The position numbers and the translations under genes were made by a program. The notes below the pieces were generated by a model. That model was not told where the DNA came from. It was given only the letters and a program-made list of their open reading frames with translations, and searched no databases. A DNA stretch of 64,000 bases, from assembly GCA_005223085.1 (NCBI GenBank), contig NJBP01000003.1, positions 7,474 to 71,473 of the forward strand. Reading direction: 5' to 3'. Source of the stretch: Candidatus Aerophobetes bacterium Ae_b3b (GTDB lineage: Bacteria > Aerophobota > Aerophobia > Aerophobales > AE-B3A). Shown piece after piece: positions 11,091-63,274 of the stretch; position 1 is the stretch's first letter, and every line of letters begins with the position of its first letter.

Positions 11091-11149
11091 GCAGAAGTTC
11101 ACAAAAAATTGCCCCCGGATGCCCCTACCCCTTGCAAGTGGGGAGGATG

Positions 11150-12424
11150 TCACTTCTTCATCATTTTTTCACTAACAACTGCAAATTTTGCTGGCCTTGG
11201 CCCATATGGTTCTTGCTTATATCTAACACCACTGTTAATTAAATACTCAACTAAGTCTCCCATGTTTTCTGTAGTGCCTGCCATAACAAGTGGTTTCATA
11301 ATTTCTTTTCTTAATTGTCCATCAGTTTTTAGCGCTTCAATAGTTTCCTTCCATGATTCATTATCCCTGCCCATGACCCTGATTCCTTTAACACTATTAA
11401 GGTTTAGCTCTTCGATTCCTGTCCTACCAGTTACAAATGTGTGAATATCCATATTGGTACCGGGAATCATGACTTTCTTTCCTCCCGCAGGAAGACCATA
11501 ATAAAATATCTTACCCCTCGGAGAAGCATACTCTATTACCATTTTTTGCAGTTTTTTCTGTCCGGTTAATTCAATACTTACAAATCCATCTTCTTGCCCA
11601 AGTTCTTCTTTTAACCGATTTAATTGTTGTTGATCGTCAGAATTTACAAAGTAAAAGTTAGCATCTAAATCCATTACACATCTTTTCATATACATCATAG
11701 CTGATTTTCCTCTGTAAATTAAAACAAAATTCTTAACCCCCTTGCTGGCAAAGTATGGGACCATATACAGTGCCTGAGCACCACAACCACCCCATATAGC
11801 CAGAGTTTCAGGCACTCTACCACTTTTTTCGCTAACGATTCTTTCCATTTTGACGGTATTTCCAAGTGGCTCTGCAAATGAGGGAAAGAAATTGAACTTC
11901 TCTATGTCTTGTGTTGGTTTTGCACAGCATTGGTGGATAGAGACAAATTCGGCAAAAGCTCCATTTCTTAGCCAATCTTTTGGATTCCCAGATTTATACC
12001 AGCCGAGAAAACCCTCTTTTTGGCATCTATCAAATTTTCCCTCTAAACACGAGCTACACTGTAAACATGGGTAATGCTCCTCACCAACAACTGTCTGGCC
12101 AATAAGAGCCTTATTAACATTTTCACCAACACCAACGATCCTTCCAGCAAATTCATGACCAAATACTGTCTTCTTTAAATCACCAGTTAAATCTACAAAT
12201 TTGTTTGCATCAGAGGCACATATAGAAATCCATAAAGGTTCTACTAAAACATCATCGGGTAGCATCTTTGGCAGGGGAACCTCTTCCAGAACAGTTTTTC
12301 CTCCCTTATAGGTAATCCATGCCTTCATTATTTCTGGGAGAGGATCCGGTATTTGATGTTTTGGCAATATAGATTTATAATCTGAGCCTATCGGTGTTAA
12401 TTCTAATTTAGAAGTAGTTTTCAC
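11150..12424 (-). CDS. Zinc-dependent alcohol dehydrogenase, threonine-dehydrogenase-like
   Basis: A 424-residue medium-chain dehydrogenase/reductase. The catalytic zinc ligands are C69 in ICASDANK and H90-E91 in GHEFAG. The four structural zinc cysteines C120, C123, C126 and C134 are all present. The nucleotide-binding loop reads IWGGCGAQAL, a variant of GxGxxG. The gene overlaps the KBL-like gene by four bases. This pairing is the classical threonine route: threonine is oxidised to 2-amino-3-ketobutyrate, which KBL cleaves with CoA to glycine and acetyl-CoA. The N-terminus is about 30 residues longer than typical TDH, so another beta-hydroxy amino acid or polyol as substrate is possible. 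Confidence 0.75.
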   Translation of the reverse strand: MKTTSKLELTPIGSDYKSILPKHQIPDPLPEIMKAWITYKGGKTVLEEVPLPKMLPDDVLVEPLWISICASDANKFVDLTGDLKKTVFGHEFAGRIVGVGENVNKALIGQTVVGEEHYPCLQCSSCLEGKFDRCQKEGFLGWYKSGNPKDWLRNGAFAEFVSIHQCCAKPTQDIEKFNFFPSFAEPLGNTVKMERIVSEKSGRVPETLAIWGGCGAQALYMVPYFASKGVKNFVLIYRGKSAMMYMKRCVMDLDANFYFVNSDDQQQLNRLKEELGQEDGFVSIELTGQKKLQKMVIEYASPRGKIFYYGLPAGGKKVMIPGTNMDIHTFVTGRTGIEELNLNSVKGIRVMGRDNESWKETIEALKTDGQLRKEIMKPLVMAGTTENMGDLVEYLINSGVRYKQEPYGPRPAKFAVVSEKMMKK

Positions 12425-13662
12425 TCCAAAATGCCTTCTTTTTTTCCTGTCTCTTGGAATGACTTCAGTGCATAATCAAGATCGTGCCTCGTATGTGAAG
12501 CTAATATCTGAACTCTTATAGTATCTTGACCTCTGGGAACAACAGGATAAGTTAAAGCTACCACATAGATTCCTCTTTGATATAAGTCAAAGACCATTTG
12601 CTTAGCCTTAATTGCATCGCCAATTAAAATAGGAACTATGGGATGAATCCCTTCAATTGTTTTAAAACCAATCTGATTTATTCCCTTTCTAAAATATTCA
12701 GTATTTTCTCTTAATCTCTCCAATAATCTTAATCCTTCATGGCTATCTAAAATCTCCAATGCTTTTAATGCAGCACCTGCCACTCCCGATCCTATTGGAT
12801 TTGAATACACATATAAAGGAGAAGTCTCTCTTAAATACTCAATAACCTTTTCATTGGATACAATAAAACCGCCGTCTACCCCCAAGCCCTTTCCTAATGT
12901 TGCGGTTATTATATCAATCCTATCTTCCTGGGTAACCTCTCCAGTGCCCCTTCCGGTTTTCCCATAAGCTCCTATTCCGTGTGAGTCATCTACAACTGTT
13001 ATAATTCCCTCTTCAAATTTTGGATCGTACTCCTCGGCCAAACAAGCTATATAGTGCAGGGGAGCATAATCTCCTCTCATACTAAATACACCATCGGTCA
13101 CTATAATTAATCTTTTCCCATTACCCACAGATTCATCTATGCACTTTCTGAGCTTGTCCATGTCACAGTGAGCATAAATTTTTTTCCTATCTCTGGGAAC
13201 TCCAGCAAATCTTATGGCCATAATTATACTGTTATGATTTAACTCATCGCTTATAATATAGGTATCCTTATCCACTAATGGAGCAATAATTCCGCAATTA
13301 GCAGCATAAGCAGAACTAAATATCATAGCAGCCTCTGTTTTATAAAACTCTGCTAGTTTTTTCTCTAATTCAATATGAGGCTCTTGTGTCCCGGAGATAA
13401 ACCTGACCGCACCTGGACCAACTCCAAACTTTAAATCTGCTTCATGTGCAGCTTTGATTAATCTTGGGTCATTAGAAATACCTAGGTAACTGTTGGAGGC
13501 AAAATTTAAGAGAGTGCGCTGGTCACTCATAACTATTTTTCTACCAAATCCATCTCCAGGAGGCACTATATCAACGATGACTTTTTCTTTCCCCTTCAGT
13601 CTACCTTCCTTCTCTAATAGTTTTAACTTTGCATCTAAAACAGATGTTAATTTATCAAGCAT
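12421..13662 (-). CDS. Alpha-oxoamine synthase family PLP enzyme (2-amino-3-ketobutyrate CoA ligase-like)
   Basis: A 413-residue fold-type-I PLP enzyme. K258 in ATLGKGLG is the expected Schiff-base lysine, D225/H228 in VVDDSHG hold the cofactor ring, and NFASNSYLG is the family N-terminal signature. Relatives are KBL (glycine C-acetyltransferase), BioF and ALA synthase. The overlap with the threonine-dehydrogenase-like gene and the lack of bio or hem genes favour KBL. The product glycine could feed the glycine cleavage system whose genes flank the island. An ATCTCTCCG-type stretch of the complement precedes the ATG, so the ribosome site is GGAGAG. A diverged copy of its first 88 codons lies at 22,685-22,953. 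Confidence 0.82.
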   Translation of the reverse strand: MLDKLTSVLDAKLKLLEKEGRLKGKEKVIVDIVPPGDGFGRKIVMSDQRTLLNFASNSYLGISNDPRLIKAAHEADLKFGVGPGAVRFISGTQEPHIELEKKLAEFYKTEAAMIFSSAYAANCGIIAPLVDKDTYIISDELNHNSIIMAIRFAGVPRDRKKIYAHCDMDKLRKCIDESVGNGKRLIIVTDGVFSMRGDYAPLHYIACLAEEYDPKFEEGIITVVDDSHGIGAYGKTGRGTGEVTQEDRIDIITATLGKGLGVDGGFIVSNEKVIEYLRETSPLYVYSNPIGSGVAGAALKALEILDSHEGLRLLERLRENTEYFRKGINQIGFKTIEGIHPIVPILIGDAIKAKQMVFDLYQRGIYVVALTYPVVPRGQDTIRVQILASHTRHDLDYALKSFQETGKKEGILE

Positions 13663-13663
13663 T

Positions 13664-13771
13664 TTTATCTCTCCGATATTTCATTGATGCTGTCATCAGG
13701 GCCTTGTTGTAGTTATCTCTCATCGACGGAGGTAAAAGCGGACTGATGACTTCCCACTGCCTGTCTGTAAA
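13664..13771 (-). pseudogene. IS5-family transposase N-terminal relic
   Basis: On the minus strand a 36-codon stretch reads TDRQWEVISPLLPPSM near its head (residues 2-17). This is the characteristic start of IS5/IS1182-type DDE transposases, normally written LTDEQWELIEPLLPP. A TGA directly precedes the stretch and it runs into the kbl start region, so only this scrap is left. Upstream, 13,772-13,923 holds a decayed frame starting with MKLAQLMKLIDDKEEAKKY interrupted by two TAG codons, which may be another transposase N-terminus (IS1595-like, weak). Together they mark the spacer upstream of kbl as an old insertion spot. Confidence 0.5.
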
Positions 13772-13923: not shown

Positions 13924-14802
13924 CTATCTAGAACAAAGTATCTTTCTCATTCGCTTTGGAAACTTAAGAGCGTTCCCAGTGATTATACAGACCACTATAT
14001 CATTTTCCTCTAGATCTACGTGTTTTAAGGCAGCGGCTGAGGCGGCAGAAGCTGGCTCTGATAATATACCTTGCTTAGCTAGGGAAATAGTTTCCTCAAC
14101 AAGCTCTTTGTCTGAAACAGAGACAAATTGCCCACCAGAATCATTTACAGCATTCGATATCTTAGGTTCCTCCAACCGGTAAAATCCATGAATACTGTCC
14201 GCAATTTTGGTGAATTGTGAGGTAGCAGCTATCATGCGCGGCGAAACCCCAGCTCTCTTCAATCCTTCCCAGACTCCGACAAGGTGAGTCCCATTGTTGG
14301 TAGGGCAGACTACGACATCCGGTGAGAACGGCGCAATTTCCCTTCCAATATAGGCATTGCCTACGATCTTGGCTTGGCAATACCCAGCATTTGCATTGTA
14401 GTATCCATGTTTTTCAGCGGCCTCGATTACCTTCTGTGTTGCAGCCATATAGTCGCCCTCAACTATTTCGATTTCGGGTTTGAAGATTCTGATGAGATCC
14501 AACTTTTCTTTACTGACATTGCTGCCAACAAATATCTTTGCTTTCAATTCATTCATGTACATAAAGGCTGATAGCGATAAGGCGGCGTTGCCGGAACTAG
14601 CACAAACAGCAGTGCCATAGCCTTTCTCAATCATCTCTAAAACAACCATGGCACTACCTCTGTCCTTGTGTGTACCTGTGGGGTTTACCGCCTCGAGTTT
14701 GGCGAAGACATTAGCCCCATACCTCTCTCTCCCTTTGGGAATCTTGACTAAGGGGGTATTCCATGTTGGCTCCTGTAGCTTATAACTTATCATTCCATCC
14801 AC
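13924..14802 (-). CDS. PLP-dependent fold-type-II enzyme, threonine-synthase-like
   Basis: A 292-residue PLP enzyme of the threonine synthase / serine-threonine dehydratase / cysteine synthase superfamily. K46 in TGTHKDRGS is the Schiff-base lysine in the form typical of threonine synthase. SSGNAALS (about residues 69-76) is the phosphate-binding loop; ITGNALKFP near the end resembles the threonine synthase C-terminus. It is shorter than usual (over 350 residues), lacking the long N-terminal region. The gene is 10 bp downstream of the M55 peptidase, in the D-peptide cassette. It could act as a lyase on an amino acid released from peptides; exact reaction unknown. Confidence 0.7.
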   Translation of the reverse strand: MDGMISYKLQEPTWNTPLVKIPKGRERYGANVFAKLEAVNPTGTHKDRGSAMVVLEMIEKGYGTAVCASSGNAALSLSAFMYMNELKAKIFVGSNVSKEKLDLIRIFKPEIEIVEGDYMAATQKVIEAAEKHGYYNANAGYCQAKIVGNAYIGREIAPFSPDVVVCPTNNGTHLVGVWEGLKRAGVSPRMIAATSQFTKIADSIHGFYRLEEPKISNAVNDSGGQFVSVSDKELVEETISLAKQGILSEPASAASAAALKHVDLEENDIVVCIITGNALKFPKRMRKILCSR

Positions 14803-14811
14803 CTCAAAGGT

Positions 14812-15654
14812 TCAGTACTCAAGTTTCATCCGAACGCTCTCACCAAGCATGAACATGGCTTGAAAAGCTTTGAAGAGCTCCAAGAAGTCGCTGGAAGTCA
14901 AAGACACTGTCGTACCACTCTTTCTTTCTGTGCCAGGGATTAGAGAGGCTGCATCCGCCATGTTCGTCATAAAGAAATCCACTTCTATGATCGTTGGGGT
15001 GTTGTAAACGAGCGGTGACATATCTTTTATTCTCCTTACTGCCATTCTGGCCATTTTTTTGATCACTTCGTTTGCCTTTGATAGAGGCAAACACTTTGCG
15101 GAGGTCATATTTATAGCCTTCTTTATGACAGCTACTTCGACTGTACCAAGCTGAGACTTTGCCTCCTCGGCTACGACGTTGTCACCTACTACTAGGGTGG
15201 TAGGCACGTTGAAATATCCGGCAATACCTGCACTGACGCCGAGTTCTCCAACCGATTTACCATTGAGTCTGACGTCTCTTATACTCAGAGGGCAAAAAGA
15301 ATGGTTCAAAACACCAGGGTGTGAGCCCATTTTCGCGTGGTAGCCTATGAGGAATGCGGCATCAAAGGTCTCATCAACTCCCTCCATCATGCATAGGGGT
15401 TTAGGTTGACCAGTTACGAGCTCGACGTTCTCGTCGTCGAACCTGTCGATCAAGAGGTTCCTCATCGTGTTGTGCGAATCGTTTATAACAAACTCCGTAG
15501 CATTTGCCTCTTTGGCCCCTTTGATTGCGGCGTTTACGTGTTCACACATAATGTGTCTGTCCCTGCCCCACTCTCCTGGATCAGCATTCTTTGAAAATTC
15601 CCAGTGTGTCTTACCAGCTCTGCCTTCCATATCTGCTGAAATAAATACTTTCAT
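14812..15654 (-). CDS. M55 family D-aminopeptidase (DppA type)
   Basis: A zinc D-aminopeptidase of 280 residues. D8, E10, H61 and H106 line up with zinc ligands known for Bacillus subtilis DppA (D8, E10, H60, H104), and an Glu near 137 can be the fifth. I place the start at ATG 15,654 because GGGAGG lies seven bases upstream; an in-frame start nine codons earlier has no ribosome site. In B. subtilis the same enzyme heads the dpp operon, and here too it lies next to a dipeptide ABC transporter on the same strand, with a 312-bp gap. Function inferred: release of D-alanine or other D-residues from imported wall peptides. Confidence 0.88.
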   Translation of the reverse strand: MKVFISADMEGRAGKTHWEFSKNADPGEWGRDRHIMCEHVNAAIKGAKEANATEFVINDSHNTMRNLLIDRFDDENVELVTGQPKPLCMMEGVDETFDAAFLIGYHAKMGSHPGVLNHSFCPLSIRDVRLNGKSVGELGVSAGIAGYFNVPTTLVVGDNVVAEEAKSQLGTVEVAVIKKAINMTSAKCLPLSKANEVIKKMARMAVRRIKDMSPLVYNTPTIIEVDFFMTNMADAASLIPGTERKSGTTVSLTSSDFLELFKAFQAMFMLGESVRMKLEY

Positions 15655-15678
15655 TTTTAATCCTCCCAGGGTCTTGCC

Positions 15679-15934
15679 CAAGTTTGTGGCAAAGTTATAG
15701 AATTAATGTAAGATTCTGTTTCATCTTCCGCTCTTTGAAAATAGCTCATCACAAGATGAGGCCTAAAAGATTTGGAACAAGCTATACCTTGAAGGCTGAC
15801 ACAAGAAAAATGGCCATCTTAAAAAGACGTCACGCTATTTATGAGTGTCCCTATGTGTGAGTATCTGTTTACCTAGAATTTTCGCTCAAATTAGCATTTG
15901 ACAACGAAAAGGACGAGCAATTGCCACAAACTTG
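15679..15934. repeat. Perfect 14-bp inverted repeat bracketing a 256-bp non-coding segment
   Basis: CAAGTTTGTGGCAA at 15,679-15,692 is repeated in inverse at 15,921-15,934 (TTGCCACAAACTTG). Between them I see no gene, only a small hairpin CTCATC-ACAA-GATGAG. The segment fills the gap between the M55 gene and the oligopeptide ATPase gene. The left arm ends at the ribosome site of the M55 gene. It has the form of a small non-autonomous element (MITE) or of two operator half-sites. I see no clear target duplication. Confidence 0.4.
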
Positions 15935-15966
15935 AGTAAATTTCCTCCTGCCCTTTTTTTAGATTA

Positions 15967-17007
15967 TCAGCTATACAAGAAGCAGGATACAAGATGTCCT
16001 TTATCTGGACCGATTAGCTTGGGCTCTTCTTTACTACACCTACTAAATGAAAACGGGCACCTCGTATGGAATCTGCATCCTGCTGGTGGATCAATAGGGG
16101 AAGGAACCTCCCCGGTAAGCTCTATTCTATCGATTCTGTAAACTTCGCTTAGCAGTGGGCTGGATGAGGCTAATGACTTGGTGTAAGGATGGAGGCACTT
16201 TTGAAAAAGCTCCTTAGTTGGTGCCAACTCCACCAGTTTACCCAAATACATGACACCAACAGTGTCCGAAACGTGACGTATCACAGAAAGGTCGTGTGCA
16301 ATGAAGAGATAAGTTAAATCCCTTTTGTTCTGCAATTCCATAAGGAGATTCAGTATTTGCGCTTGTATGGATGTATCCAGAGCGGTTACTGGCTCATCCA
16401 GCACGATGAATTTAGGTTCTGTCGCTAATGCGCGGGCTATTGCGGCCCTCTGCCGCTGTCCTCCACTTAGTGCTTTTGGTTTTTTCGTGTAAAATACCTC
16501 GCTGAGCCCGACCTGGCCAAGTAAGTCTAGGCAATATTCTTTTATCATGTCCCTCTTGACGATTTCATGATGATTGATCACCTCCTTTAACATATTTCCA
16601 ATTATCTTGTGTGGAGGCAAAGTCGAGTAGGGATTTTGAAATACGACTTGCACCTCCTTTCTAAGCTTTTTGAGCTGCCTATCTGCTAAAGAACGGATGT
16701 TCTGCCCGAAAACTCGAATGTTACCAGCAGTAATTGATTCGAGTCTAAGAACACACCTGCCTAAGGTCGACTTTCCGCAACCGCTCTCACCTACGAGTCC
16801 AAATGTCTCGCCTCTCCTTATGTCCAGGGAGATATCGTCTACAGCTTTAACATACTTCTGTTCCCTCACAAGGATTTTGTCGATAAAACCCTTTCTCAGC
16901 ACATAGTACTTTTTCAGATGGCCGATTTCTATAACTGTCTCATTTCGGGAGATTTCTTTCATTTTGTTCTTGTGGTCCGAGACTATATCTACATCCAACG
17001 TCAGCAC
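15967..17007 (-). CDS. Dipeptide/oligopeptide ABC transporter ATPase, DppF type (system 1)
   Basis: A 346-residue nucleotide-binding subunit. Walker A is GESGCGKST (73-81), the signature is LSGGQRQR, and Walker B is FIVLDEPVTALD. The C-terminal domain has the cysteine-rich PAGCRFHTRCPFS stretch typical of Dpp/Opp ATPases, often tied to an Fe-S cluster. The chosen start is GTG 17,007, overlapping the DppD stop; GGGGGT lies directly in front, so TTG a few codons in is an alternative. It is the last gene of the Dpp1 operon. Confidence 0.93.
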   Translation of the reverse strand: MLTLDVDIVSDHKNKMKEISRNETVIEIGHLKKYYVLRKGFIDKILVREQKYVKAVDDISLDIRRGETFGLVGESGCGKSTLGRCVLRLESITAGNIRVFGQNIRSLADRQLKKLRKEVQVVFQNPYSTLPPHKIIGNMLKEVINHHEIVKRDMIKEYCLDLLGQVGLSEVFYTKKPKALSGGQRQRAAIARALATEPKFIVLDEPVTALDTSIQAQILNLLMELQNKRDLTYLFIAHDLSVIRHVSDTVGVMYLGKLVELAPTKELFQKCLHPYTKSLASSSPLLSEVYRIDRIELTGEVPSPIDPPAGCRFHTRCPFSFSRCSKEEPKLIGPDKGHLVSCFLYS

Positions 17008-18011
17008 ACCCCCTGAAAACCGTGGTTCTTAGACCGCGATAGTCTCTTGGCATCTTCTGGTTTTATGCAACGAATACTGTGATTTTCATCGATTTTTCTA
17101 AGTTCTATACTTTCTTGGAGGCAGCCTTCATCCCCTATTGGACACCGAGGGTAAAATTTGCATCCTTGGTGAGGAATTTCACTGAGCTCGCCCATTATAG
17201 TTGGAATCTTACCCTTAGGTTCGTAGTATATTACGTTGGATCTAAGCAATCCGAATGTATAGGAGTGCAAGGGGTTTTCGAAAACGGTTTTCACCGTCCC
17301 CTGTTCCATTAATGTGCCAGCATACATTACATTCACATAGTCACATATGCGCTTGATGACTCCGAGATCGTGCGTTATCCACAGCACCGAAACACCTATC
17401 TCACCTATGAGTTCCTCGAACTCATTCAAAATCTGGTTTGCGATAGTTACATCTAGAGCTGTTGTCGGCTCATCCGCGATGATCAGTGACGGCTCGCAGC
17501 TCATTGCCATAGCGATCGTCACTCTTTGAATCATCCCACCGCTGAGTTCGTGAGGATAGTTGTCAAAACGTTTTTCCGGGTCCGAGATCCTAACTTTCCT
17601 GAATAGATCTATTGCCTTCGTCTTTGCCTCCTTCTGTCCAATATCTTGGTGGAGCTTCAAAACACTAGTAATCTGTTCTCCAACGGTAAACAGTGGATTG
17701 AGCGATACCATTGGATCCTGAAAGATCATCGAGATCTCATTCCCCCTGATTTTGAACTGCATCTCCTTCTCGCTTAATTCCCTTATATTTATACCTTTAA
17801 AAATTATCCCACCGGACACGATTCTACCTGTTTCCGGCAGGATCCTAAGGAGCGAGTTGGCAATTGTGGTCTTGCCACTTCCCGACTCACCTACGAGGCC
17901 AACTACCTCCCTTTCTCTTATCGAAAGGTCGGCACCATCCACCGCCTTGACGATTGCCCCGTTTCCCTCAAAGTACGTGTGGAGGTCCTTTATTTCTAGT
18001 AAATTCATCAT
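17001..18011 (-). CDS. Dipeptide/oligopeptide ABC transporter ATPase, DppD type (system 1)
   Basis: A 336-residue ATPase with Walker A GESGSGKTT (41-49), signature LSGGMIQR, Walker B LIIADEPTTALD and the terminal CKFYPRCPIG cysteine cluster. The signature with Met after GG is the usual DppD/OppD variant, while DppF has LSGGQRQR, so the two form the normal heterodimer. Its ATG shares one base with the DppC stop (TAATG), so the genes are translationally coupled. Confidence 0.93.
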   Translation of the reverse strand: MMNLLEIKDLHTYFEGNGAIVKAVDGADLSIREREVVGLVGESGSGKTTIANSLLRILPETGRIVSGGIIFKGINIRELSEKEMQFKIRGNEISMIFQDPMVSLNPLFTVGEQITSVLKLHQDIGQKEAKTKAIDLFRKVRISDPEKRFDNYPHELSGGMIQRVTIAMAMSCEPSLIIADEPTTALDVTIANQILNEFEELIGEIGVSVLWITHDLGVIKRICDYVNVMYAGTLMEQGTVKTVFENPLHSYTFGLLRSNVIYYEPKGKIPTIMGELSEIPHQGCKFYPRCPIGDEGCLQESIELRKIDENHSIRCIKPEDAKRLSRSKNHGFQGVC

Positions 18012-18907
18012 TATTTCTCCAACATGTCTCGCAGGCCATCGCCGATCAGGCTAAAACCTATCACGGTATACATGATCCCAAGTGCTGGAAAAGTAGCAAT
18101 CCACCAACCCACCTGCAGCAACTGCCTCCCTTCGGCTATCTGCGCCCCCCACTCAGGAATTGGGGGTTGTGCACCAACGCCAACAAAACTGAGGGAAGCT
18201 GCAACTAATATAACGAGTGCACAGTCAAGCGAAGCGTAAACAATGGTCGGCGCGATGGAGTTCGGCATCAAATGCCCGAATATTATTCTTTTGTCCGAAA
18301 AACCAACAGCTTCAGCTGCTCTGACATAATCCTCTTCCTTTTCTGAGAGGTACCTACTTCTAACAATCCTAGCATACTGACACCAACTTACAATAGCAAT
18401 AGCAAAATACAAGTTTTTGAGACCGGGACCGAAGATAGCCATGATGGCAATGACAAGTACCAGAAAAGGAAAAGCCATAATCGAGTCAACAATGCGCATG
18501 ATTATGGTATCGATCCAACCCTCGTAATAACCGGAAAGTGCTCCTGCTAAGTTGCCTACGATGAAGGCGATTCCGACACCGATTACGCAGATTTTCACTG
18601 CTATCCAGGCGCCGTGGATCACCCTTGACATTACATCTCTCCCATACAGATCCGTGCCAAATAGGTGGCTAAGCCCTGGTGGTTCAAGGCTCTCAGTTAG
18701 GACCTGTTGGTACGGATCGTAAGGAGCGATGAAAGGCGCGAATATTCCTACCAGGGTTAATATACCGATCATTATCAGGCCGATTCTGCTATTAGGATTT
18801 CTGATAATTTTCTTTACTGTCTCCCATCTCGCGATGTTTTCATCGCCGAAGAGAAGGTTAATGGAACGAGATATTACACTGCCTGCATTCCTGTTATTCA
18901 CTCTCAA
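18011..18907 (-). CDS. Dipeptide ABC transporter permease, DppC type (system 1)
   Basis: A 298-residue inner-membrane permease with six predicted membrane segments. The N-terminal DppC signature is visible as FGTDLYGRDVMSR after the first helix. The ATPase-coupling EAA loop reads AAEAVGFSDKRIIFGHLMPN, and the C-terminal SLSFVGVGAQPP motif is characteristic of DppC/OppC. The gene overlaps DppB by four bases and DppD by one. Confidence 0.94.
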   Translation of the reverse strand: MRVNNRNAGSVISRSINLLFGDENIARWETVKKIIRNPNSRIGLIMIGILTLVGIFAPFIAPYDPYQQVLTESLEPPGLSHLFGTDLYGRDVMSRVIHGAWIAVKICVIGVGIAFIVGNLAGALSGYYEGWIDTIIMRIVDSIMAFPFLVLVIAIMAIFGPGLKNLYFAIAIVSWCQYARIVRSRYLSEKEEDYVRAAEAVGFSDKRIIFGHLMPNSIAPTIVYASLDCALVILVAASLSFVGVGAQPPIPEWGAQIAEGRQLLQVGWWIATFPALGIMYTVIGFSLIGDGLRDMLEK

Positions 18908-19845
18908 CTCCTGTAGATCCGTGGGTCTATTAATCCATAAATGATGTCAACGATGTAGTTGTTTAACATTATTGCTAATGCAAATACAAGACTAATGCCC
19001 TGTATCAAGGGATAGTCCCTTACTATCACGGCATCTAATAACATCGCCCCTATCCCAGGTAGAGAGAATACTGTTTCGATCACCACCGACGATCCGAGGA
19101 GCCACCCTAAGTTCAAACCAAGAACGGTAATAGTAGGCAAAAGCGCATTCTTGAGGACATACTTCAGATAAATTGTCCTGTCCGAGAAGCCATACGTCCT
19201 TGCTGTTCGTATATACTCTTTTTGCAAAACCTCGATCATATCTGACCTAAGAGTTCTCGTAACAAGAGCAGTCAGAAACAGTCCGAGGATGAAACTGGGG
19301 AGAAATAGGTGATATATGTTATCTAGCAGACCTGACCCCCATCCCCTAGTGGGGAACCAACCCAATCGGAGGGCGAAGATATTGAGGAATAGAAGACCCG
19401 TCCAGAATTCCGGCATCGAGAAGACGAAAAGTGACGAGATTCGCGCCACATAATCGGGGAACTTGCCACGGTGTTTCGTCGCCCATAAGCTGAGCGGAAG
19501 CGAAATGATAACGCAAAATACTGCTGACATAAAAACCAGCGAGAGCGTCACTCTTAACCTTGAAAAAATCAACTCAGTAATTGGAGCCTTATAGCGAATT
19601 GATGTTCCCAGGCTTCCACGTGCAAGCTGTGTGAGAAACACGTAAAACTGCTTGTGTAGTGGCTCATTGAGACCGAGACTCTTCCTCAGTTGCTCGAGGC
19701 GCTCCGGTGTAGCCATGATACCAAGTATATTCTTGGCTGGATCACCAGGTATGAAATGCAGCATAAGGAATACTATAAACAAAACAATGAATAAAACGGG
19801 TATCATTTCGAGAAATCTTCTTAGAGCATATCGTTCAAGAGACAT
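18904..19845 (-). CDS. Dipeptide ABC transporter permease, DppB type (system 1)
   Basis: A 313-residue permease starting with a membrane helix and the DppB hallmark FIPGDPAKNILG. The coupling loop is ARTYGFSDRTIYLKYVLKNA, followed by the conserved VIETVFSLPGIGAML. A stem-loop separates it from the SBP gene upstream, after which the permease and ATPase genes follow with overlaps. AGGAGGT-type complement sits just before the ATG. Confidence 0.94.
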   Translation of the reverse strand: MSLERYALRRFLEMIPVLFIVLFIVFLMLHFIPGDPAKNILGIMATPERLEQLRKSLGLNEPLHKQFYVFLTQLARGSLGTSIRYKAPITELIFSRLRVTLSLVFMSAVFCVIISLPLSLWATKHRGKFPDYVARISSLFVFSMPEFWTGLLFLNIFALRLGWFPTRGWGSGLLDNIYHLFLPSFILGLFLTALVTRTLRSDMIEVLQKEYIRTARTYGFSDRTIYLKYVLKNALLPTITVLGLNLGWLLGSSVVIETVFSLPGIGAMLLDAVIVRDYPLIQGISLVFALAIMLNNYIVDIIYGLIDPRIYRS

Positions 19846-19883
19846 AGGAGGTCACCCTAAGGTAAGCCGTTCATTGATATTTG

Positions 19884-19924
19884 GAACCATGGTACCTTGG
19901 GAGGAACCCACGGCACCATGGTTC
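19884..19924 (-). other. Intercistronic stem-loop behind SBP gene of Dpp1
   Basis: GAACCATGGT (19,884-19,893) and ACCATGGTTC (19,915-19,924) form a perfect 10-bp stem with a 21-base loop. It starts 12 bases after the SBP stop and lies before the DppB gene. It has no T-run, so it fits partial termination or 3' protection of the SBP message better than full termination. Confidence 0.6.
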
Positions 19925-19935
19925 TCGGGAATATT

Positions 19936-27812: not shown

Positions 27813-27813
27813 C

Positions 27814-52878: not shown

Positions 52879-52880
52879 AC

Positions 52881-53762: not shown

Positions 53763-53806
53763 CTTCTTTTTCCCATAGTCTTAGTGGACAAAAAAAGTTT
53801 TGGAGT

Positions 53807-53836
53807 ATCCCGGTCCTCCTGTGAGAGGACCGGGAT
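53807..53836 (-). other. Intercistronic stem-loop behind sugar SBP gene
   Basis: ATCCCGGTCCTC (53,807-53,818) pairs perfectly with GAGGACCGGGAT (53,825-53,836): 12-bp stem, six-base loop, between the SBP and MalF genes. Confidence 0.7.
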
Positions 53837-53854
53837 TGACGTCCGATCCTGCTA

Positions 53855-55291: not shown

Positions 55292-55608
55292 TAGCTTTCC
55301 TCCTTCTTACGTAATATCCCTTTGTGTTCTAAAACAACCATCGTCAACCTCTTACTGTGCCATTCTGAGCATGATATGAGTGGATAAGCCATGCTATCTT
55401 TGACGATCTTGACCGTATCTATACTTTTTCCCTGTCACGACATACCTCCGTCAGGGTAAGGTGCGATCTCTCACCTCCTTCTATGCGGACTTTATACCTA
55501 GGGTCTTGTGCTTGTTAAGCAGTATCACCCCCTCTCGCTTCGATTTTTGACCCATCCTTTCACTTTAGAGAAGATTATTGGAGTCTGTTTTAATAAGAGG
55601 CTCATTCA
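55292..55608 (-). other. Leader/gap before sugar transporter
   Basis: No gene seen. The transcribed strand has three strong anti-16S-like blocks (AGGGGGTGAT, AAGGAGGTGAG, GGAGGT) without start codons at working distance, and a hairpin CCCTG-ACG ... CGT-CAGGG at 55,431-55,457. Looks like a structured leader. Confidence 0.4.
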
Positions 55609-56370
55609 TTATTCATTTTTATTTAGATTTGTTTTCAGTCTGAAGACAGATTTGGCTGTTTTACCTAGTGCCCAATCAATTTCCTCATTTGTTAATCCAA
55701 TGCTTCTGTATTTTATTAACTCTACTGCTGCGTTATCGGCATGATCCGAACCAAACATTATTCTGTCTTTGCCAATACATTTTATCCATTCTTTAATAAG
55801 AAAACCAGCTGTCCAACTACACTCAAGAAATACATTCACGTGTTTCTTGGTAAGATAAGCTGCTTCTGAGGCAAAAACCATCATACCTGCATGCGCAACA
55901 ATAATTTTCACCGTCGAATATTCCTCGGCGATCGGATGCAATAAAGAGGGTTCTGACCATGGAATTCCCGATCCGGTATGGACCATTACTGGAATTTTCA
56001 GTTTGTTTGCCAGAGCAAATACCTTTCGTCCATCATGACCAAGCGGATTAACCGCATGAGCAAATGGTTGAAGTTTTACTCCCACAAACTTTAATTTGCT
56101 TATACAACGCCGAAGTTCCACCTCGTAGATATTTTCAGGTAAATGAGGATTGGGATTGGCCATACCGTAGAAACGACCTGGATATCGCTTGCAAAGCTCG
56201 AATATCCTGTCGTGCTGTTTTTTGACATCCTCAATGGAATTGACGGTGGCAGGCTGGACAATTGTTATGTTGATCCCGTTTCGCTTCTGAGCCTCGATAA
56301 GTTCTTCTTCACCGAACTCCTCGTCAAAAACCTTATCTTTACCTAGATGAGCATGTGTATCAATTATCAT
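55609..56370 (-). CDS. Amidohydrolase family protein (TIM-barrel metal hydrolase)
   Basis: A 253-residue protein of the amidohydrolase-2 (COG2159) group. DTHAHLGKD at the N-terminus gives the HxH metal pair, HTGSG and VAHAG the next ligands, and GSDHAD the final Asp. Members include decarboxylases, lactonases and sugar-acid hydrolases. It overlaps the dehydrogenase gene by 11 bases, so both act in one pathway, possibly as lactonase or in ring opening. Confidence 0.82.
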   Translation of the reverse strand: MIIDTHAHLGKDKVFDEEFGEEELIEAQKRNGINITIVQPATVNSIEDVKKQHDRIFELCKRYPGRFYGMANPNPHLPENIYEVELRRCISKLKFVGVKLQPFAHAVNPLGHDGRKVFALANKLKIPVMVHTGSGIPWSEPSLLHPIAEEYSTVKIIVAHAGMMVFASEAAYLTKKHVNVFLECSWTAGFLIKEWIKCIGKDRIMFGSDHADNAAVELIKYRSIGLTNEEIDWALGKTAKSVFRLKTNLNKNE

Positions 56371-57220
56371 CTTTTTTCAGCTTTTCTGGATGTAACATAA
56401 GATTTATTGTTTTTCGGATCATTTCTGGTTCAAACAATACCTTCTTCCAATCGGGTTTAAAAAACCATTCTTTCCCTAATTTGATAGCAACCTTGCATGC
56501 ATCAGAGAAAAGAGCGTCGGTGGTTCCAAAAACAATACCTAATTCAATGCAAGCATGACCCAGCATAAATGATTCGGCAGCTTCTTTTGGCACGCCATGA
56601 TCGTTGACAGCAATGTCAACTGCTTCCTTTAAAACAGATGCGAGTGCAGCCCCGAGAACTTCTGCTACCATCGGTTCCAGTATAGCCATCTGTTCAAGGG
56701 TGACTCTGTGACATTTATCAACAGGACCCCACATCTCACAGCAGAGCTCCTTTGCCTTAGTGAAGTTCTCCTCCGAACCCTGTATTAAGCCGACTATGAT
56801 GTCTTGGACTGCTCTACCGCCCCACCAGTCTTTTCTCGTTACAGGAGTCTCCTGCTCCTTAAAGGGGGAGACGTGACACGGGTGAGCTGCCACATAGGTC
56901 ACATCATCCCTCATGGGAATCCCCCCGACATAGGGAACAGCTGCATCAAGGAGAACCACGGTAGCATCGCTTTTAAGCATGGGAGTTATATTTTTAGCGA
57001 TGCTACTCATCAAAATGTCGGGAACAGCCATAATAACAATATCGGTAACAGGTACAGCTTCCTCAGCGGGCGTAGCTTTCAAACCCTTCTCTTGAAGTTT
57101 TTTCAGACCATCACCTTCTTCACAGAGTAAAAGCCTATAGTTTTCTTTCATAAGCTTATCTCTACATCGACTACCCATTTTTCCACCAGCTCCAAGTAAT
57201 GCTACTGTTTGTGTCATCAT
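56360..57220 (-). CDS. NAD-binding dehydrogenase of the phosphogluconate-dehydrogenase-related/ApnO-like group
   Basis: A 286-residue protein with an N-terminal Rossmann domain (ALLGAGGKMGSR at residues 8-19) and a helical C-terminal domain with HPCHVSPF, LEQMAILEPMVAEVLG and HACIELGIVFG. These match the family annotated as phosphogluconate dehydrogenase C-terminal domain-like, whose described member is D-apionate oxidoisomerase ApnO. Together with a XylB-like kinase, a TIM-barrel isomerase and an amidohydrolase it suggests a branched-sugar-acid pathway. True substrate unproven. Confidence 0.65.
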   Translation of the reverse strand: MMTQTVALLGAGGKMGSRCRDKLMKENYRLLLCEEGDGLKKLQEKGLKATPAEEAVPVTDIVIMAVPDILMSSIAKNITPMLKSDATVVLLDAAVPYVGGIPMRDDVTYVAAHPCHVSPFKEQETPVTRKDWWGGRAVQDIIVGLIQGSEENFTKAKELCCEMWGPVDKCHRVTLEQMAILEPMVAEVLGAALASVLKEAVDIAVNDHGVPKEAAESFMLGHACIELGIVFGTTDALFSDACKVAIKLGKEWFFKPDWKKVLFEPEMIRKTINLMLHPEKLKKDDN

Positions 57221-57380
57221 GACTCCTCTTTTTTTAAACCGAATTAAATCACGTCAAACCTAACCGAAAAGGGACTACTTGAATCGTTTCCAATGACACT
57301 TTTGGCACAATTTGGCACCAGACTCTGACCTTGAGACCACCAAATGATGTACTTTTCCAGCACGTTCCTAGATATTTCTA

Positions 57381-58904
57381 TTACAGTGAAGAAAGTTCAG
57401 CAAACTTATCTTTTAAAAGGGGATACAAAGAACGATATAATAAATAATAGTCTTCATATCTTTTTACGTTATCCTTAATAGGATAGGTCTCTTCTATGAC
57501 TCTAATCAGTCGATTACAAACCTCATTAACGCTATTATACAAACCCGACCCTACACTAGCCAGTATTGCTGCACCATAAGCTGCACCCTCCAAGGAATTC
57601 ACCGTTATAACTTTTGAATTAGTTACATCAGCCAGTATTTGCTTCCACAGCTTGGCGCGCGCACCCCCTCCGGTAGCCCGAATCTCGCTAATTGGTATAT
57701 GGAGTTCCTTCATAACTTCTATAGAATCCCTTAATCCGAAAACAACCCCTTCCAAAATAGATCTTATCATGTGAGCTTTATGGTGACGCATATCCAATCC
57801 AAAGAAAATCCCTCTCGCTTTTGCATCGGAATGGGGGTGTCTTTCTCCACTCAAATAAGGCAAAAATATGAGATTTTCGCTTCCCGCAGGTACTCTTTCT
57901 GCCTGTTCCACGATGAGTTGGTAAACATCTTGCCGTTTATTTTCAGCCTCTTTTATTTCGGCATCACACAGAGTATCGCGAAACCATCTTAACGATCCAC
58001 CTGCCGATTGCATAACTCCCATTGTATGCCAGGTATCCGGAATGGCAAAGCAAAAACTATCTAATCGACCTCGATCGTCGTGTCGAATAAGACTGGTAGG
58101 AGCAAAGACAACTCCCGAGGTACCCATGGTACAGGCCAAAACCCCTTCCTTAATGACTCCGGTGCCTATGGCTTGAGCTGATTGATCACCGGCTCCGGCA
58201 ACCACTGGTGTGCCATAATTAAGTCCCGTTAATTCACTGGCTTTTTTGGTAATTGCGCCAGAGATCTCTATTGATTCTCGGCAATCCGGTAATATGTCTT
58301 TGTCTAAATCAAGTTTGTCCACTATTTGGGAAGACCACCTTCTCTCAGGGACATCCAGCAGGAGAGTTCCGGAAGCATCAGTTACATCAGTAACCAAATT
58401 ACCCGTAAGTTTCAAACGAACATAATCTTTAGGAAGTAAAAAATGAGATAACTTCTCATAGACTTGTGGTTCATTCTCTTTTACCCAGAGTATCTTGCAT
58501 ACAGTAAAATAATAAGAAGCCGGATTACCGGTAATCCTCAACAGCTCTTCCTTGCTTATTCTTTTACTTATATATTCAACCTGTTCAGTGGTTCGTTGGT
58601 CACACCAAAGAATACAAGGTCGAAGAACGTGGTGGGCTTTGTCAAGCAGGACAGCTCCATGGTATTGGCCGGATAATCCTATACCAGCAATCTCACGAGT
58701 CTTGACAGAAGCATCACCCATGACTTTAGCTATTCCTTTCATAGTAGCCTTCCACCAATCTTCTGGGTCTTGTTCTACCCAGTCTACTTGAGGAGTTGAC
58801 AAAGGGTAATCTTCGAAGGCGCTCGCTGTAACCTTGCCTGCTTCTGTTACTAAAACAACCTTGGTTCCCGTAGTCCCTACATCAATGCCCAGTAAATACT
58901 TCAT
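57381..58904 (-). CDS. FGGY-family carbohydrate kinase, xylulokinase-like
   Basis: A 507-residue sugar kinase. LLGIDVGTTGTK is the N-terminal ATP-site motif; GLSGQYHG and WCDQRT the sugar-binding residues; the catalytic Asp lies in GAGDQSAQA; GGGARAKLWKQILAD and EGAAYGAAILA are the FGGY C-terminal signatures. I use ATG 58,904, seven bases behind AAGGAG. Closest family is XylB; neighbours point to a keto sugar or keto acid, so name and substrate are open. Confidence 0.85.
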   Translation of the reverse strand: MKYLLGIDVGTTGTKVVLVTEAGKVTASAFEDYPLSTPQVDWVEQDPEDWWKATMKGIAKVMGDASVKTREIAGIGLSGQYHGAVLLDKAHHVLRPCILWCDQRTTEQVEYISKRISKEELLRITGNPASYYFTVCKILWVKENEPQVYEKLSHFLLPKDYVRLKLTGNLVTDVTDASGTLLLDVPERRWSSQIVDKLDLDKDILPDCRESIEISGAITKKASELTGLNYGTPVVAGAGDQSAQAIGTGVIKEGVLACTMGTSGVVFAPTSLIRHDDRGRLDSFCFAIPDTWHTMGVMQSAGGSLRWFRDTLCDAEIKEAENKRQDVYQLIVEQAERVPAGSENLIFLPYLSGERHPHSDAKARGIFFGLDMRHHKAHMIRSILEGVVFGLRDSIEVMKELHIPISEIRATGGGARAKLWKQILADVTNSKVITVNSLEGAAYGAAILASVGSGLYNSVNEVCNRLIRVIEETYPIKDNVKRYEDYYLLYRSLYPLLKDKFAELSSL

Positions 58905-58986
58905 TATTATACTCCTTGCCACAAAAAAGACCTGCTTATTTTGAGCGGGACGCGTTCCGAAAAAGAACGTGATGTAGAACTTAAGT

Positions 58987-59472
58987 TTATTTATCTGGAG
59001 GATATCGTCTCTCTGGAGGTCCTACTTCCCCGTCATTTCCAAGTTCATAGATAATCCCCAGGGTCGGCTCGGTATTGAGATAGCAGAACACGTCCGTACC
59101 ACATTTACCACTCTGAATGACTTCGACTCCCTTTTTTCTGAACTTCTCCAGGGTGTGTTCCATCTCATCATCGGCAACTTTTTCCTTGATATGATGAAAA
59201 CCTTCACCTTTTTCTTTCAAGAAACGCTCATAAATGTTGGGACCTTTTACGGGCTGCATAAGTTCAAATTGAATATCTCCGAATTTAGCCAAGGCGATCT
59301 TAAATGCGAAGGGCTCTTTGACGGGTTGGCCATAGAAAATAAACTCTCTGACTGTATCTGAACCAAAGGTGTAAACATCCCAGGGTCCTATGCCCAAAGT
59401 TTCCCAGAACCTTTCCATCGACTTTTGAAGATCTTTAACCAATATACCTATTTGTACTATTTTTCTTTTCAT
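58987..59472 (-). CDS. VOC-family (glyoxalase/epimerase-fold) protein
   Basis: A 161-residue protein with two beta-alpha-beta-beta-beta modules. VQIGILVKDLQKSMERFWETLG is the typical first module head; IQFELMQPVKGPNIYERFLKEKGEGFHHI contains the metal-binding Glu and His. Such proteins near sugar-acid genes may be epimerases or lyases. GGAGGAGA stands before the ATG. Confidence 0.8.
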   Translation of the reverse strand: MKRKIVQIGILVKDLQKSMERFWETLGIGPWDVYTFGSDTVREFIFYGQPVKEPFAFKIALAKFGDIQFELMQPVKGPNIYERFLKEKGEGFHHIKEKVADDEMEHTLEKFRKKGVEVIQSGKCGTDVFCYLNTEPTLGIIYELGNDGEVGPPERRYPPDK

Positions 59473-59647
59473 CTTTATCTCCTCCTTCTTGAGACATAGC
59501 TCATTTTCTTAGGTTCTATCTCCAGACCTGCCCATCCATCCCATAGTTTAAGATAGCCCGAGGTAAACGTAAAACCATACCCAGAGGAATGCAACGTTAT
59601 CGGCGCCTTAAGAGACCAACAATACGCATCTTGCCTGTGATATAGCG

Positions 59648-60757
59648 TTATTGAGAGGCTCCTCTGGCTTTCATGTGCCATACTGCCTCGACCACATCAT
59701 TTCGGACCACATAGCAGAGGTCGTGTAGATTGATGGTGGTGCACCCGTGACTGGGATAAAATTCTAATTTGTCTCCAATTTTGAGATTCCTGGTCGGATT
59801 TTTCCAGAGTATACGCACGTGCTCCTCGTGCATAGCATCAATAACTGCCCCAGGTGCCTCAATTAGTTCAGGCATTCCCATATCATTGGTTAATGATTTT
59901 AGCCCGGTATCCAGAATATACTTTTCTTCTGTGGGATGACTGATGATGGTTGTCATAAGGGAAAGAGCAATTTCAAAATCTATTCCGATTTTTCGGTATT
60001 GCGTATCCATGGTAGCATAGGATCCTGCCTGGACTTCGGTGATTCCAGGGTAGCGACCGGCTATGGTATACGTTCCGGTGCCGCCGGCACTTACTATTTC
60101 TATGGGTACCCCATTTTTCTCCAGAAAATCCCGGACTCGCACCAACCGAACGAGAGCTTTGCGGCATTCACTCTTTCTTCGTTCGTAATCTGGTATCAGC
60201 ACGGTATGACCTTCGTATCCCATAAGACCTCTCAAGCGAACTCCTTTCAGGTCCAAAATAGTTTTCGCAAGCGCTAAAGCCTCCTCTTCCGTCCCAACAC
60301 CGCATCGGTTCATCCCTACGTCGATCTCTACAAGGACATTGACTTTCACCCCTCTTTTGACGGCAATAGCTGACATCTGAGAGGCATTCTCCACATTGTC
60401 AACTGCTACTATGATGTCACTGTGATGTGCTAAACCGGCCAATTGCTCAAGTTTTCTCTCTCCTACAATCTGATTAGCAATGAGTACGTCCCTCACGCCG
60501 CTTTCAGCAAGAACTTTAGCCTCGCTGATCTTGGCACAGGTGATACCCCGGGCGCCTGCCTTGATCTGCTTGTGAGCTATAACAGGAAGACGATGAGTCT
60601 TGAAGTGGGGTCTAAGATTGCACTCGACCTGCGAAAAAAAGGCTGCCATTTTATCAATATTTCTTTCCAGGCGATCTGCATAAAGAAGAAGAGCGGGTGT
60701 TTCAATCTCATGTTTATGTTTGCCCACAATCAATTGATTGTATCGAACAGAACTCAT
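59648..60757 (-). CDS. D-threonine aldolase / D-serine dehydratase-like PLP enzyme (fold type III)
   Basis: A 369-residue protein with an alanine-racemase-type N-terminal barrel: K53 in RPHFKTHR binds PLP, and SAGGTGTY holds the phosphate. The C-terminal domain has PSHGCTTINLHD, whose His and Cys (H-x-C) are the metal site of zinc D-serine dehydratase; D-threonine aldolase has Asp at the second place. So the enzyme may dehydrate D-serine-like or cleave D-threonine-like 3-hydroxy amino acids, the latter giving glycine. The ATG follows AAGGAGAT. Confidence 0.8.
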   Translation of the reverse strand: MSSVRYNQLIVGKHKHEIETPALLLYADRLERNIDKMAAFFSQVECNLRPHFKTHRLPVIAHKQIKAGARGITCAKISEAKVLAESGVRDVLIANQIVGERKLEQLAGLAHHSDIIVAVDNVENASQMSAIAVKRGVKVNVLVEIDVGMNRCGVGTEEEALALAKTILDLKGVRLRGLMGYEGHTVLIPDYERRKSECRKALVRLVRVRDFLEKNGVPIEIVSAGGTGTYTIAGRYPGITEVQAGSYATMDTQYRKIGIDFEIALSLMTTIISHPTEEKYILDTGLKSLTNDMGMPELIEAPGAVIDAMHEEHVRILWKNPTRNLKIGDKLEFYPSHGCTTINLHDLCYVVRNDVVEAVWHMKARGASQ

Positions 60758-60975
60758 AATATCTCCTTTTTCTTCAAAAATTTTTTTCGGTGCTACCTGT
60801 TCTTCTCGTCTACGACGGTGGGGTATCTGTCAGCCATTTTCAAGTCCTACTGCCAAAGGTCACATTCGTCTCCAGTAACGAATTTACTGGCAGATGTTTA
60901 CTGCCCTAACCTATTTTGGAATTTTGACATAGAAACCGGTGCTTTTTGACCCGCGGCTGCCCGTTGGCTAGAGCT
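60758..60975. other. Gap with small hairpin
   Basis: No gene seen. CCAGTAA-CGAAT-TTACTGG (60,872-60,890) is a perfect 7-bp hairpin and GGCAG ... CTGCC follows at once. Could end or attenuate the isomerase transcript. Confidence 0.35.
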
Positions 60976-61893
60976 CTAATAGTCTATACTGGTAGTGCTC
61001 TTCCAGTATTCGACGCTCTCCTTAATATCTTCTAATACCTTTTTTTCATCAGCTTCAAAGGGATGTATTATTTCGAGGAACAAATATACTTCGTCTGTTC
61101 CGGATTTCTGGATACTCTTCAGTATCCTTTCAGGCTCAATGATTCCCTTTTTATTAAATTCTTTTGTGAAGGGCCAGTGTGAGTCCAATATTCCATCGGT
61201 TTGCTGGATGTGAATTGCCGGAGATAGGGGGGCGAACTCCTCTAACCATGCATAAGGGTCTCTATCTTTACCCGATGTATCCACTGCACACTGGTGTCCT
61301 ACATCAAGGCAAAAATTGATGGGAACGGCAGACCCTTTATTGACTTCAGTGTGGAAATTCCTGGCTTCTTCCATTGTGTGGCATATCTCCCGGGCTAAAG
61401 GTGTTGGTTCCCACAGAAAAAATTCCTGGTCTTCGAGGGCAGCCAATTGTGCCAGATGTTGAAGTGACTCAATTAATTGCTTGATTAAACTTTCTTTCCG
61501 AGAAGGTGTATTAAAATCTCTCATAGAAAAAGCACCAAGAGGTCCTCCCGTTCCTCGTGCTCCCATTTCACTGGTCATAAATACTGCTTCCTCACACCAG
61601 CGCAGGGCATCATGACGAATCCCTACGTCTGGATGGAGAAGTTGATTAAAGGAATACGAGGCAATACCGGGAAAGGTAGTATGAATTTCCAAACCATAGC
61701 TGCCAGCTGTCTTTTTTATTTTCTCACTCATTTTACGTCTTGCTGGCTGGCTAACCCCTGGATCAAGTAAATCCCAGCTAAATTGTACGTACCTGAGTTT
61801 CAATTCTTCTGCTATTATTCTGCACCATTCTTCAGGCTCTGGCCATCTTTTTACTGCAAAACAATTATTGATGCCCAATGTAATTTTGCTCAT
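60976..61893 (-). CDS. Sugar phosphate isomerase/epimerase-like TIM-barrel protein
   Basis: A 305-residue protein of the xylose-isomerase-like TIM barrel (AP endonuclease 2) group: LGINNCFAVKRWPEPEEW at the N-terminus, EIHTTFPGIASYSF, EFFLWEPTPLA with the metal Glu, FCLDVGHQCAVD with Asp and His, HIQQTDGILDSHWPF. I use ATG 61,893 with GAGGAGG in front, rather than an upstream frame start. First gene of module 3, behind the promoter at 62.08 kb. Related enzymes isomerise or epimerise free sugars and sugar acids. Confidence 0.83.
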   Translation of the reverse strand: MSKITLGINNCFAVKRWPEPEEWCRIIAEELKLRYVQFSWDLLDPGVSQPARRKMSEKIKKTAGSYGLEIHTTFPGIASYSFNQLLHPDVGIRHDALRWCEEAVFMTSEMGARGTGGPLGAFSMRDFNTPSRKESLIKQLIESLQHLAQLAALEDQEFFLWEPTPLAREICHTMEEARNFHTEVNKGSAVPINFCLDVGHQCAVDTSGKDRDPYAWLEEFAPLSPAIHIQQTDGILDSHWPFTKEFNKKGIIEPERILKSIQKSGTDEVYLFLEIIHPFEADEKKVLEDIKESVEYWKSTTSIDY

Positions 61894-61971
61894 TGCCTCC
61901 TCCTCTTTATCAGGTTCGTCAAGCTCCTCCAAGGAAAGAGTTTTTCCTTATTAGATTTAGTGCTAACTCCC

Positions 61972-62104: not shown

Positions 62105-62197
62105 GGAAAAATGAGAGTTTCCCCAAATTCTACCTAAAATCTTAAGCTTTGACATGCAAAAAGTCCTTTTCCACTTTATCATCTTCTCAATCGCTCT

Positions 62198-62488
62198 TTA
62201 ATTCAGCACTTTAGGAAAAACGATATGAAATTTTTGGGAATCTCCGGTAACATTTTTCCTTACCTTACTGTCAATACTTCTACCTTGCTTAAGATAATCA
62301 ACGAACCGAAAATAACAGCCCGTCAAAACATAAGATATCGTCTTATTCTCCAGTTTTTCTCTATTTTTCCATAGATAGAGTCACCCTTCCTGCAATAAAT
62401 CATCCTGGTCCGCCTTATTGTCGGTAACGTCGCCAGCAATTTTTTGTAGCTTTGTTTCTAACTTTTCTACTGCTTCGGTAAATTCCAT
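62198..62488 (-). pseudogene. Sigma-70-like factor gene, broken by in-frame TGA
   Basis: ATG 62,488 opens 35 codons ending ADQDDLLQEG, then TGA (62,383-62,381), then 60 more open codons starting LYLWKNREKLENK and a TAA at 62,200-62,198. Read through, DDLLQEG-x-LYLW is the region-2 pattern of sigma-70-like factors (DLxQExxxxLW). The TGA stands where a Leu is usual, one base from TTA or TTG. Region 4 is missing, so it is most likely decayed. A piece of its start occurs in scar 2. Confidence 0.6.
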
Positions 62489-62542
62489 CTTTTCCCGACT
62501 TTCAGTTTAAGAAGGTGACTCTACAGGAAGAGGAAACTATAT

Positions 62543-63274
62543 CTATCTTCGGTAATTCCAGTTTCGAGTGCTGTATTTGATCTGCCTTAACTCCTGAGAT
62601 AGTTTCACTTCCTCTTTGGTTAACTGGCCAGGTAGTAATCTTATCCCTAATCTTTTTTCAAATCCCCAAACTAGACTATCTATAATTTTCCCCCTATCTT
62701 TTTTCTGTTTGCTATTTTTAGAGGTAATTTTGTTATCCATCAGGATCGATCCGTGTTGGAAAAAGGCTCTGTTTCTTCTCCTTTGAGCGCTTCCCCCAAT
62801 TTTTCTACCCTCTTCAACGACGTCATATTTTGAGGGAATGACAAAACAAAAATAGGGATCAGGCCCTTTGGTCTCTTTTCTTTCTAACTCGGCATTTATC
62901 CCCAAATTTTGTAGACCGAGGATTATAGCCTCATGAACTAACTGCTGGGTTTTTGTAATATCCCTAAAGGTAGGAAATTCATTGGTAGAGCAAGCTAAAG
63001 AATAGGTTATCTCATTTCTATGAAGTATCGCGCCTCCTCCGGTAAAGCGCCTCACAATGGTGAGTTTTTGTCTTTTGTATTCTTTTAAGGAAGGATCTTC
63101 TATTCTCTGAAAGTAGCCGATGGAGATAGCCGCTGGTTTCCAGGCATAGAATCGAAGGGTAGCAGGAAGGCCCAGTTTCTCTCTCATCAGGAATACGGCC
63201 TCGTCTATAGCCATATTGGTATAGGCATCTAGATAGCCAGAATCAATCAATCGCCACTCTTTTTTTCTTTCCAT
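62543..63274 (-). CDS. lplA: Lipoate-protein ligase A family protein
   Basis: A 243-residue biotin/lipoate ligase-fold protein. [11 protein letters not shown] carries the lipoyl-AMP-binding glycines, KIGGSAQRR the catalytic lysine, and GSILMD the following strand. It attaches lipoate (or octanoate) to lipoyl domains such as GcvH. It overlaps gcvPB by 28 bases, fitting a glycine cleavage operon. The C-terminal accessory domain of long LplA forms is absent, so it could be an LplA2/LipM-like transferase. Fragments of diverged copies lie at 22.0-22.5 and 45.9 kb. Confidence 0.9.

Follow-up and report, generated by a model that had tools for sequence, protein, structure and literature searches.

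Introduction

Accessory gene hotspots often lack mobile elements, and gene gain at these sites is mostly inferred from gene content. For hotspots of this kind, exchange through the flanking core genes has been proposed (Oliveira et al., 2017; PMC5635113), and in its classical form the model consists of a double crossover that replaces the resident genes and leaves no scar. For the T6SS loci of Vibrio cholerae, serial addition of modules through homology-facilitated illegitimate recombination has been proposed (Kirchberger et al., 2017; PMC5361080), a process known from Acinetobacter, Streptococcus pneumoniae and Pseudomonas stutzeri in the work cited there. The fabD-lplA interval of Candidatus Aerophobetes bacterium Ae_b3b departs from the classical exchange model in that several occupants coexist and addition appears to have left scars. 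The locus seems to retain physical traces of two additions, and a comparison of its fragments with donor lineages would put the model of exchange via flanking core genes to a direct test.

Materials and Methods

The window, i.e., the whole 64,000-nt stretch of DNA that was analyzed, corresponds to bases 7474-71473 of contig C29 of the source assembly (G000; 2.04 Mb, 86 contigs, completeness 88.6%), with its right end at the contig end. The nearest named relative was the Candidatus Aerophobetes MAG JAUWXE010000072.1, whose contig matches were those of G001:C35. Among the genomes compared, G001 is a congener of the source genome and the G008 bin represents another genus. Scar fragments were located by self-BLAST of the window, and the whole assembly was also searched. 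Substitutions in the gyrA, fabD and lplA pieces were polarized using G001 as the third sequence, and trees were built with FastTree.

Results

Three unrelated modules between fabD and lplA

Two scars (21903-22965 and 45753-46334) divided the interval between fabD and lplA into three modules (Table 1), and the self-BLAST fragments thus confirmed an arrangement that had been proposed from the nucleotide sequence alone. To the left, the accA-gyrB-gyrA-fabD synteny of the core block was kept in relatives. The modules measured 8-23 kb, were metabolic and had all been retained; every module gene lay on the minus strand, and gene content was unrelated among the three. The oligopeptide ABC transporter of module 1 was represented by oppF, D, C and B together with a family-5 SBP. 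Module 2 ran from an Asp/Glu racemase through a spermidine-type transporter, an S-Me-THD-like protein, the second oligopeptide transporter, a nitroreductase-like gene, an M20 peptidase and a branched-chain amino-acid type transporter to a second Asp/Glu racemase, while module 3 joined its two ABC transporters to sugar or D-amino-acid catabolic genes. Some transporter classes were common to modules 1-3; homologs from different modules shared only ~39-44% protein identity, and hence none of the modules is a copy of another. This layout supports the view that three nutrient-uptake cassettes occupy one address, joined end to end.

Two further features of module 2 were recorded. A pair of paralogous proteins (37802-38848 and 43906-44949; 56% identical), neither with a confident Pfam match, flanks the branched-chain amino-acid type transporter, and in G002 a homolog has an M20 peptidase gene on one side and a gcvH-like gene on the other. 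At 29356-29528 there is an element of ~175 bp that is bounded by imperfect terminal inverted repeats of 15 bp and contains palindromes in its interior; it is missing at that place from G008:C3, similar copies occur on many other contigs of the source assembly, and it is probably a MITE-like repeat.

Table 1. Features of the fabD-lplA interval and its borders (positions in the window; intact counterparts and nucleotide identity of scar fragments in the last column).
Feature	Position	Strand	Remarks
Left core block (tsaD, PHP, ctp, polysaccharide deacetylase, accA, gyrB, gyrA, fabD)	304..11090	+	Intact left border
gyrA, intact	7762-10170	+	Left core block
fabD, intact	10167-11090	+	Left core block
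tdh-like and kbl (BioF/Kbl family)	11150..13662	-	First gene pair of module 1
Module 1: threonine-synthase-like PLP enzyme, DppA-like peptidase, oligopeptide ABC transporter, GntR regulator fragment	13924..21873	-	
Scar 1, segment S	21903..22016	+	Module-side; shared with scar 2 and G008:C3
Scar 1, lplA codons 61-211	22035..22488	-	Frame open; 62641-63094, 88.8%
Scar 1, gyrA codons ~425-490	22492..22695	+	9034-9238, 92.7%
Scar 1, kbl codons 1-89	22687..22965	-	13396-13674, 92.5%
Module 2: three ABC transporters (spermidine-type, second oligopeptide, branched-chain amino-acid type), two Asp/Glu racemases, S-Me-THD-like, nitroreductase-like, M20 peptidase	22977..45671	-	
Scar 2, segment S and first bases of sigma-like ORF	45753..45909	+	
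Scar 2, lplA remnant, ~codons 90-103	45909..45948	-	40 bp
Scar 2, fabD codon 174 to stop	45932..46334	+	10688-11090, 89.3%
Module 3: two sugar/polyamine-type ABC transporters, SDR, amidohydrolase, PGDH-like, FGGY kinase, glyoxalase-like, D-serine dehydratase-like, xylose-isomerase-like	46511..61932	-	
Sigma-70-region-2-like ORF	62180..62540	-	In-frame stop; downstream of lplA
lplA, intact	62543..63274	-	Right border
gcvPB start	63247..63960	-	Contig stops at window end

Anatomy of the scars and their joints

Five border-gene fragments were found inside the interval, all of them oriented like the intact copies and mostly 89-93% identical to them; no other DNA-level match to gyrA, fabD or kbl occurred in the 2.04-Mb assembly. 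In both scars the right-border piece (lplA) precedes the left-border piece (gyrA/kbl or fabD), which is the order expected where a complete copy of the locus has been placed beside another, and the native orientation and order foreseen in the original prediction were therefore borne out. The lplA remnant of scar 2 was recovered by self-BLAST as a 57-bp match (45892-45948 to 62949-63005; 84%).

The scars had also been described as made of core genes only, which is true of gyrA and fabD but not of kbl, a gene present in only one of 17 genomes of the order, the source genome itself. A member of the gene pair that opens module 1, kbl apparently also belongs to the opening pair of module 2: the fragment in scar 1, located on the same strand as the racemase gene of module 2 and 24 bp downstream of it, has the appearance of that module's native left terminus. 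At the opposite end, segment S and the sigma-like start in scar 2 make up the native right terminus, the arrangement also seen in G008:C3. A sigma-like gene had been counted among the right-border genes, and its start is indeed in scar 2, but the ORF at the outer border (Sigma70_r2, E 1.7e-5) is interrupted by a stop codon and is not intact. The segment S copies at 21903-22016 and 45753-45866 were 82% identical, and the outer right border had none. Within segment S, a ~32-bp motif (21903-21935) adjoining the TTGACA-like promoter sequence of the module operons had 91-97% matches at many G002 sites and single matches in G003 and G005; it is possibly a shared operator or promoter element.

The five joints, located at about 22030, 22490, 22690, 45909 and 45940, differed in the homology they displayed. 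At the joint between segment S and lplA, 7-10 bp were shared, and at that between lplA and fabD there was 14/16 homeology, a level that 2 of 651,753 position pairs attained. The sigma-lplA joint was weak (11/15; reached by 111 of 248,428 position pairs). Microhomology was absent or nearly so at the lplA-gyrA joint and amounted to ~2 bp at the gyrA-kbl joint, where ~4.2 kb would have been removed judging by the intact spacing. Given the latter two joints, the joining route was not uniform. Searches of viral contigs for the lplA-gyrA and lplA-fabD joints gave no match.

Scar fragments carry the marks of working genes

Over four fragments, alignment of the scars to the intact genes, which had been put forward as a check, turned up 62 silent differences and 65 replacements; about half were thus silent, not most of them as had been claimed, against a neutral expectation of ~27%. 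No stop or frameshift was found across 428 scar codons. Upon polarization, silent/replacement changes numbered 17/17 on the scar branch, 24/26 on that of the window and 31/25 on that of G001, and the scar-specific changes departed from neutral (p = 0.003). The scar branch was not longer than the intact branch (34 vs. 50 changes, p = 0.10). Over the same stretches, G001 and the window were 87-88% identical, comparable to the 89-93% of the scar fragments.

In trees of few genomes, the scar copies of lplA and gyrA were placed apart from the intact copies. The lplA of scar 1 fell outside the pair formed by the window copy and that of contig C55 (support 0.97), whereas the fabD and gyrA trees were weakly resolved; the scar gyrA was 92% identical to that of G001 and the intact gyrA 88%. 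Border divergence by itself would be compatible with either side being imported. Taken together, the polarized constraint and a scar branch no longer than the intact one indicate that the fragments diverged in other lineages while they were still working genes, and that their breakage was recent relative to that divergence, in agreement with the original prediction.

Module 2 in relatives

In G001, module-2 sequence starts 142 bp after fabD and comprises a nitroreductase-like gene cut at codon 141 followed by an M20 peptidase (90% identical). On an 18-kb contig of the G008 bin (G008:C3), module 2 connects to lplA by way of segment S and the start of the sigma-like ORF, and the window (28101-45908) is mostly 98-99% identical to it over most of 16.4 kb. 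The lplA of this contig is only 92% identical to that of the window, and this difference points to recent transfer of module 2 between lineages. Because the gyrA and fabD proteins of G008 itself share only 67% and 55% identity with those of the window, G008:C3 was probably misbinned from the genus studied here, the other candidate being transfer between genera. With either origin, the right border next to module 2 in G008:C3 bears no scar. At 45000-45400, in the second Asp/Glu racemase gene, identity to G008:C3 dips to ~88-91% inside a 95-98% stretch, a possible gene conversion patch.

Part of module 2 was therefore found at the left border in G001, and module 2 at the right border in G008:C3, on independent contigs; no contig of a relative spanned the whole interval. 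Modules 1 and 3 alone had no convincing DNA-level match in 12 relatives, and no empty fabD-lplA site was found among the relatives searched. The proposal of repeated capture at one locus, with each module to be sought alone in relatives, was accordingly upheld for module 2, in part, and not for modules 1 and 3; on these comparisons, support for exchange would extend to module 2 only. Clear relatives of lplA were patchy, occurring only in G001, G005, G008:C3 and G014 among 16 other genomes. In G005, lplA is followed by a thioredoxin-reductase-like and an NAD-kinase-like gene (named from sequence only). Other genes follow fabD in G002, G003, G004, G006, G009, G010, G011 and G015, and in sister genera both fabD and lplA have other neighbors.

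Searches for mobile elements and DNA-uptake genes

Pfam/NCBIfam scans of the main ORFs of the window detected no integrase or transposase, ARAGORN found neither a tRNA nor a tRNA att-like site in the window, and an Rfam scan of the window returned nothing, so the predicted lack of an integrase or att site held among the genes examined. Direct repeats accompanied by a recombinase at both module ends were not found by self-comparison and scanning of the main ORFs, and neither a plasmid nor a relaxase gene was seen among the genes examined. The source assembly did contain ComEC and DprA matches above the curated cut-off, which makes natural transformation possible, although their presence alone does not prove it.

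Discussion

The results suggest that the cassettes arrived by sloppy recombination at the same address and not by a mobile element. We regard as probable, and as the best explanation, additive capture, in which homologous recombination acts at one border and illegitimate joining at the other, with deletions occurring afterwards. In this Aerophobetes genus, the interval between fabD and lplA would then serve for the exchange of metabolic cassettes, which would travel together with the flanking household genes. DNA of a relative holding another cassette between the same border genes would enter the cell, possibly by natural transformation given comEC and dprA, and pair by homologous recombination at one border gene, the identity of which we can only infer. 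Its other end would be joined illegitimately, so that the new cassette comes to lie next to the resident one, which is not replaced; what remains is a scar where a truncated lplA from the right border meets a truncated gyrA or fabD from the left. If this happened twice, with small deletions within the scars, three stacked modules would result; the deletions as later events, the order of the additions and the route of DNA entry are all points that we infer.

It is unlikely that a fragment of a relative's locus was instead ligated end to end (lplA to gyrA or fabD) into a circle or tandem intermediate and integrated by a single, Campbell-type homologous crossover. The same scar structure would be expected and the nearly homology-free lplA-gyrA joint would fit end ligation, but an extra step is needed and the genes examined included none of plasmid or relaxase type. 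Its product would be identical to that of additive capture, the two differing only in the order of illegitimate joining and homologous crossover.

Tandem duplication in situ of the whole gyrA-to-lplA locus, after which each copy would have had its module replaced and the inner border genes would have decayed, ranks below the circle in our estimation and is improbable. Direct orientation and border order would be expected from it as well, and the shared transporter classes agree with it. Against this, the inner copies are 7-11% diverged yet constrained, on a branch no longer than that of the intact genes, the lplA of scar 1 groups outside the window copy, no module is duplicated (as the low identity of transporters across modules indicates), and import from relatives would be required anyway.

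Last in probability, and likewise improbable, is an assembly artefact in which the contig fuses pieces of co-occurring strains that hold one module each. The bin does hold a second lplA-gcvPB copy (G000:C55:1-1121, 94% identical to the window), and thus strain or species mixing; contig C55 begins inside lplA. A single stretch of ~150 bp in lplA contains the ends of contigs from G000, G001, G005 and G008, and G005:C29 and G005:C147 overlap inside lplA by exactly 141 bp, which suggests assembly-graph branching there in several assemblies. However, the assembly kept C29 and C55 apart despite a 116-bp identical stretch, whereas the longest exact match between a scar and an intact gene was 68 bp and joint homology did not exceed ~16 bp, making an assembler join at the scars appear unlikely. 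Moreover, the window contains no N, each scar has several joints, and the right end of module 2, as far as the start of the sigma-like ORF, has independent backing from G008:C3. A history in which duplicated genes simply decayed in situ was rejected on the polarized substitution counts.

Additive capture with border-gene scars may, as a tentative and rather doubtful generalization, be a recurrent mode of island growth in recombining lineages, in which the scars would record donor, order and age for each capture. Scanning islands for truncated border genes in right-then-left order would reveal how often cassettes are added as opposed to swapped.

An integrative element or recombinase-bearing genomic island would be recognized by a recombinase gene and direct repeats at both ends, and these were not found by self-comparison of the window and scanning of its main ORFs. 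The T6SS effector-immunity arrays of V. cholerae are similar in that modules are inserted serially at one locus, with an anchor on the conserved side, and older pieces remain as an ordered array (PMC5361080). They differ in that the incoming effector-immunity pairs are small and take the place of the old effector, whose immunity gene stays behind as an orphan, whereas here 8-23 kb modules are all kept and the remnants are truncated household genes of the border. Homology-facilitated illegitimate recombination in Acinetobacter, S. pneumoniae and P. stutzeri, as cited by Kirchberger et al. (2017), resembles the proposed events in that a homologous anchor and an illegitimate joint at the other end insert foreign DNA; those cases are experimental transformations, while here the process would have occurred twice, judging by old joints, in an uncultured phylum. 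As its occupants were added and not swapped, the locus fits homology-facilitated illegitimate recombination (PMC5361080) better than the exchange described for hotspots without mobile elements (PMC5635113).
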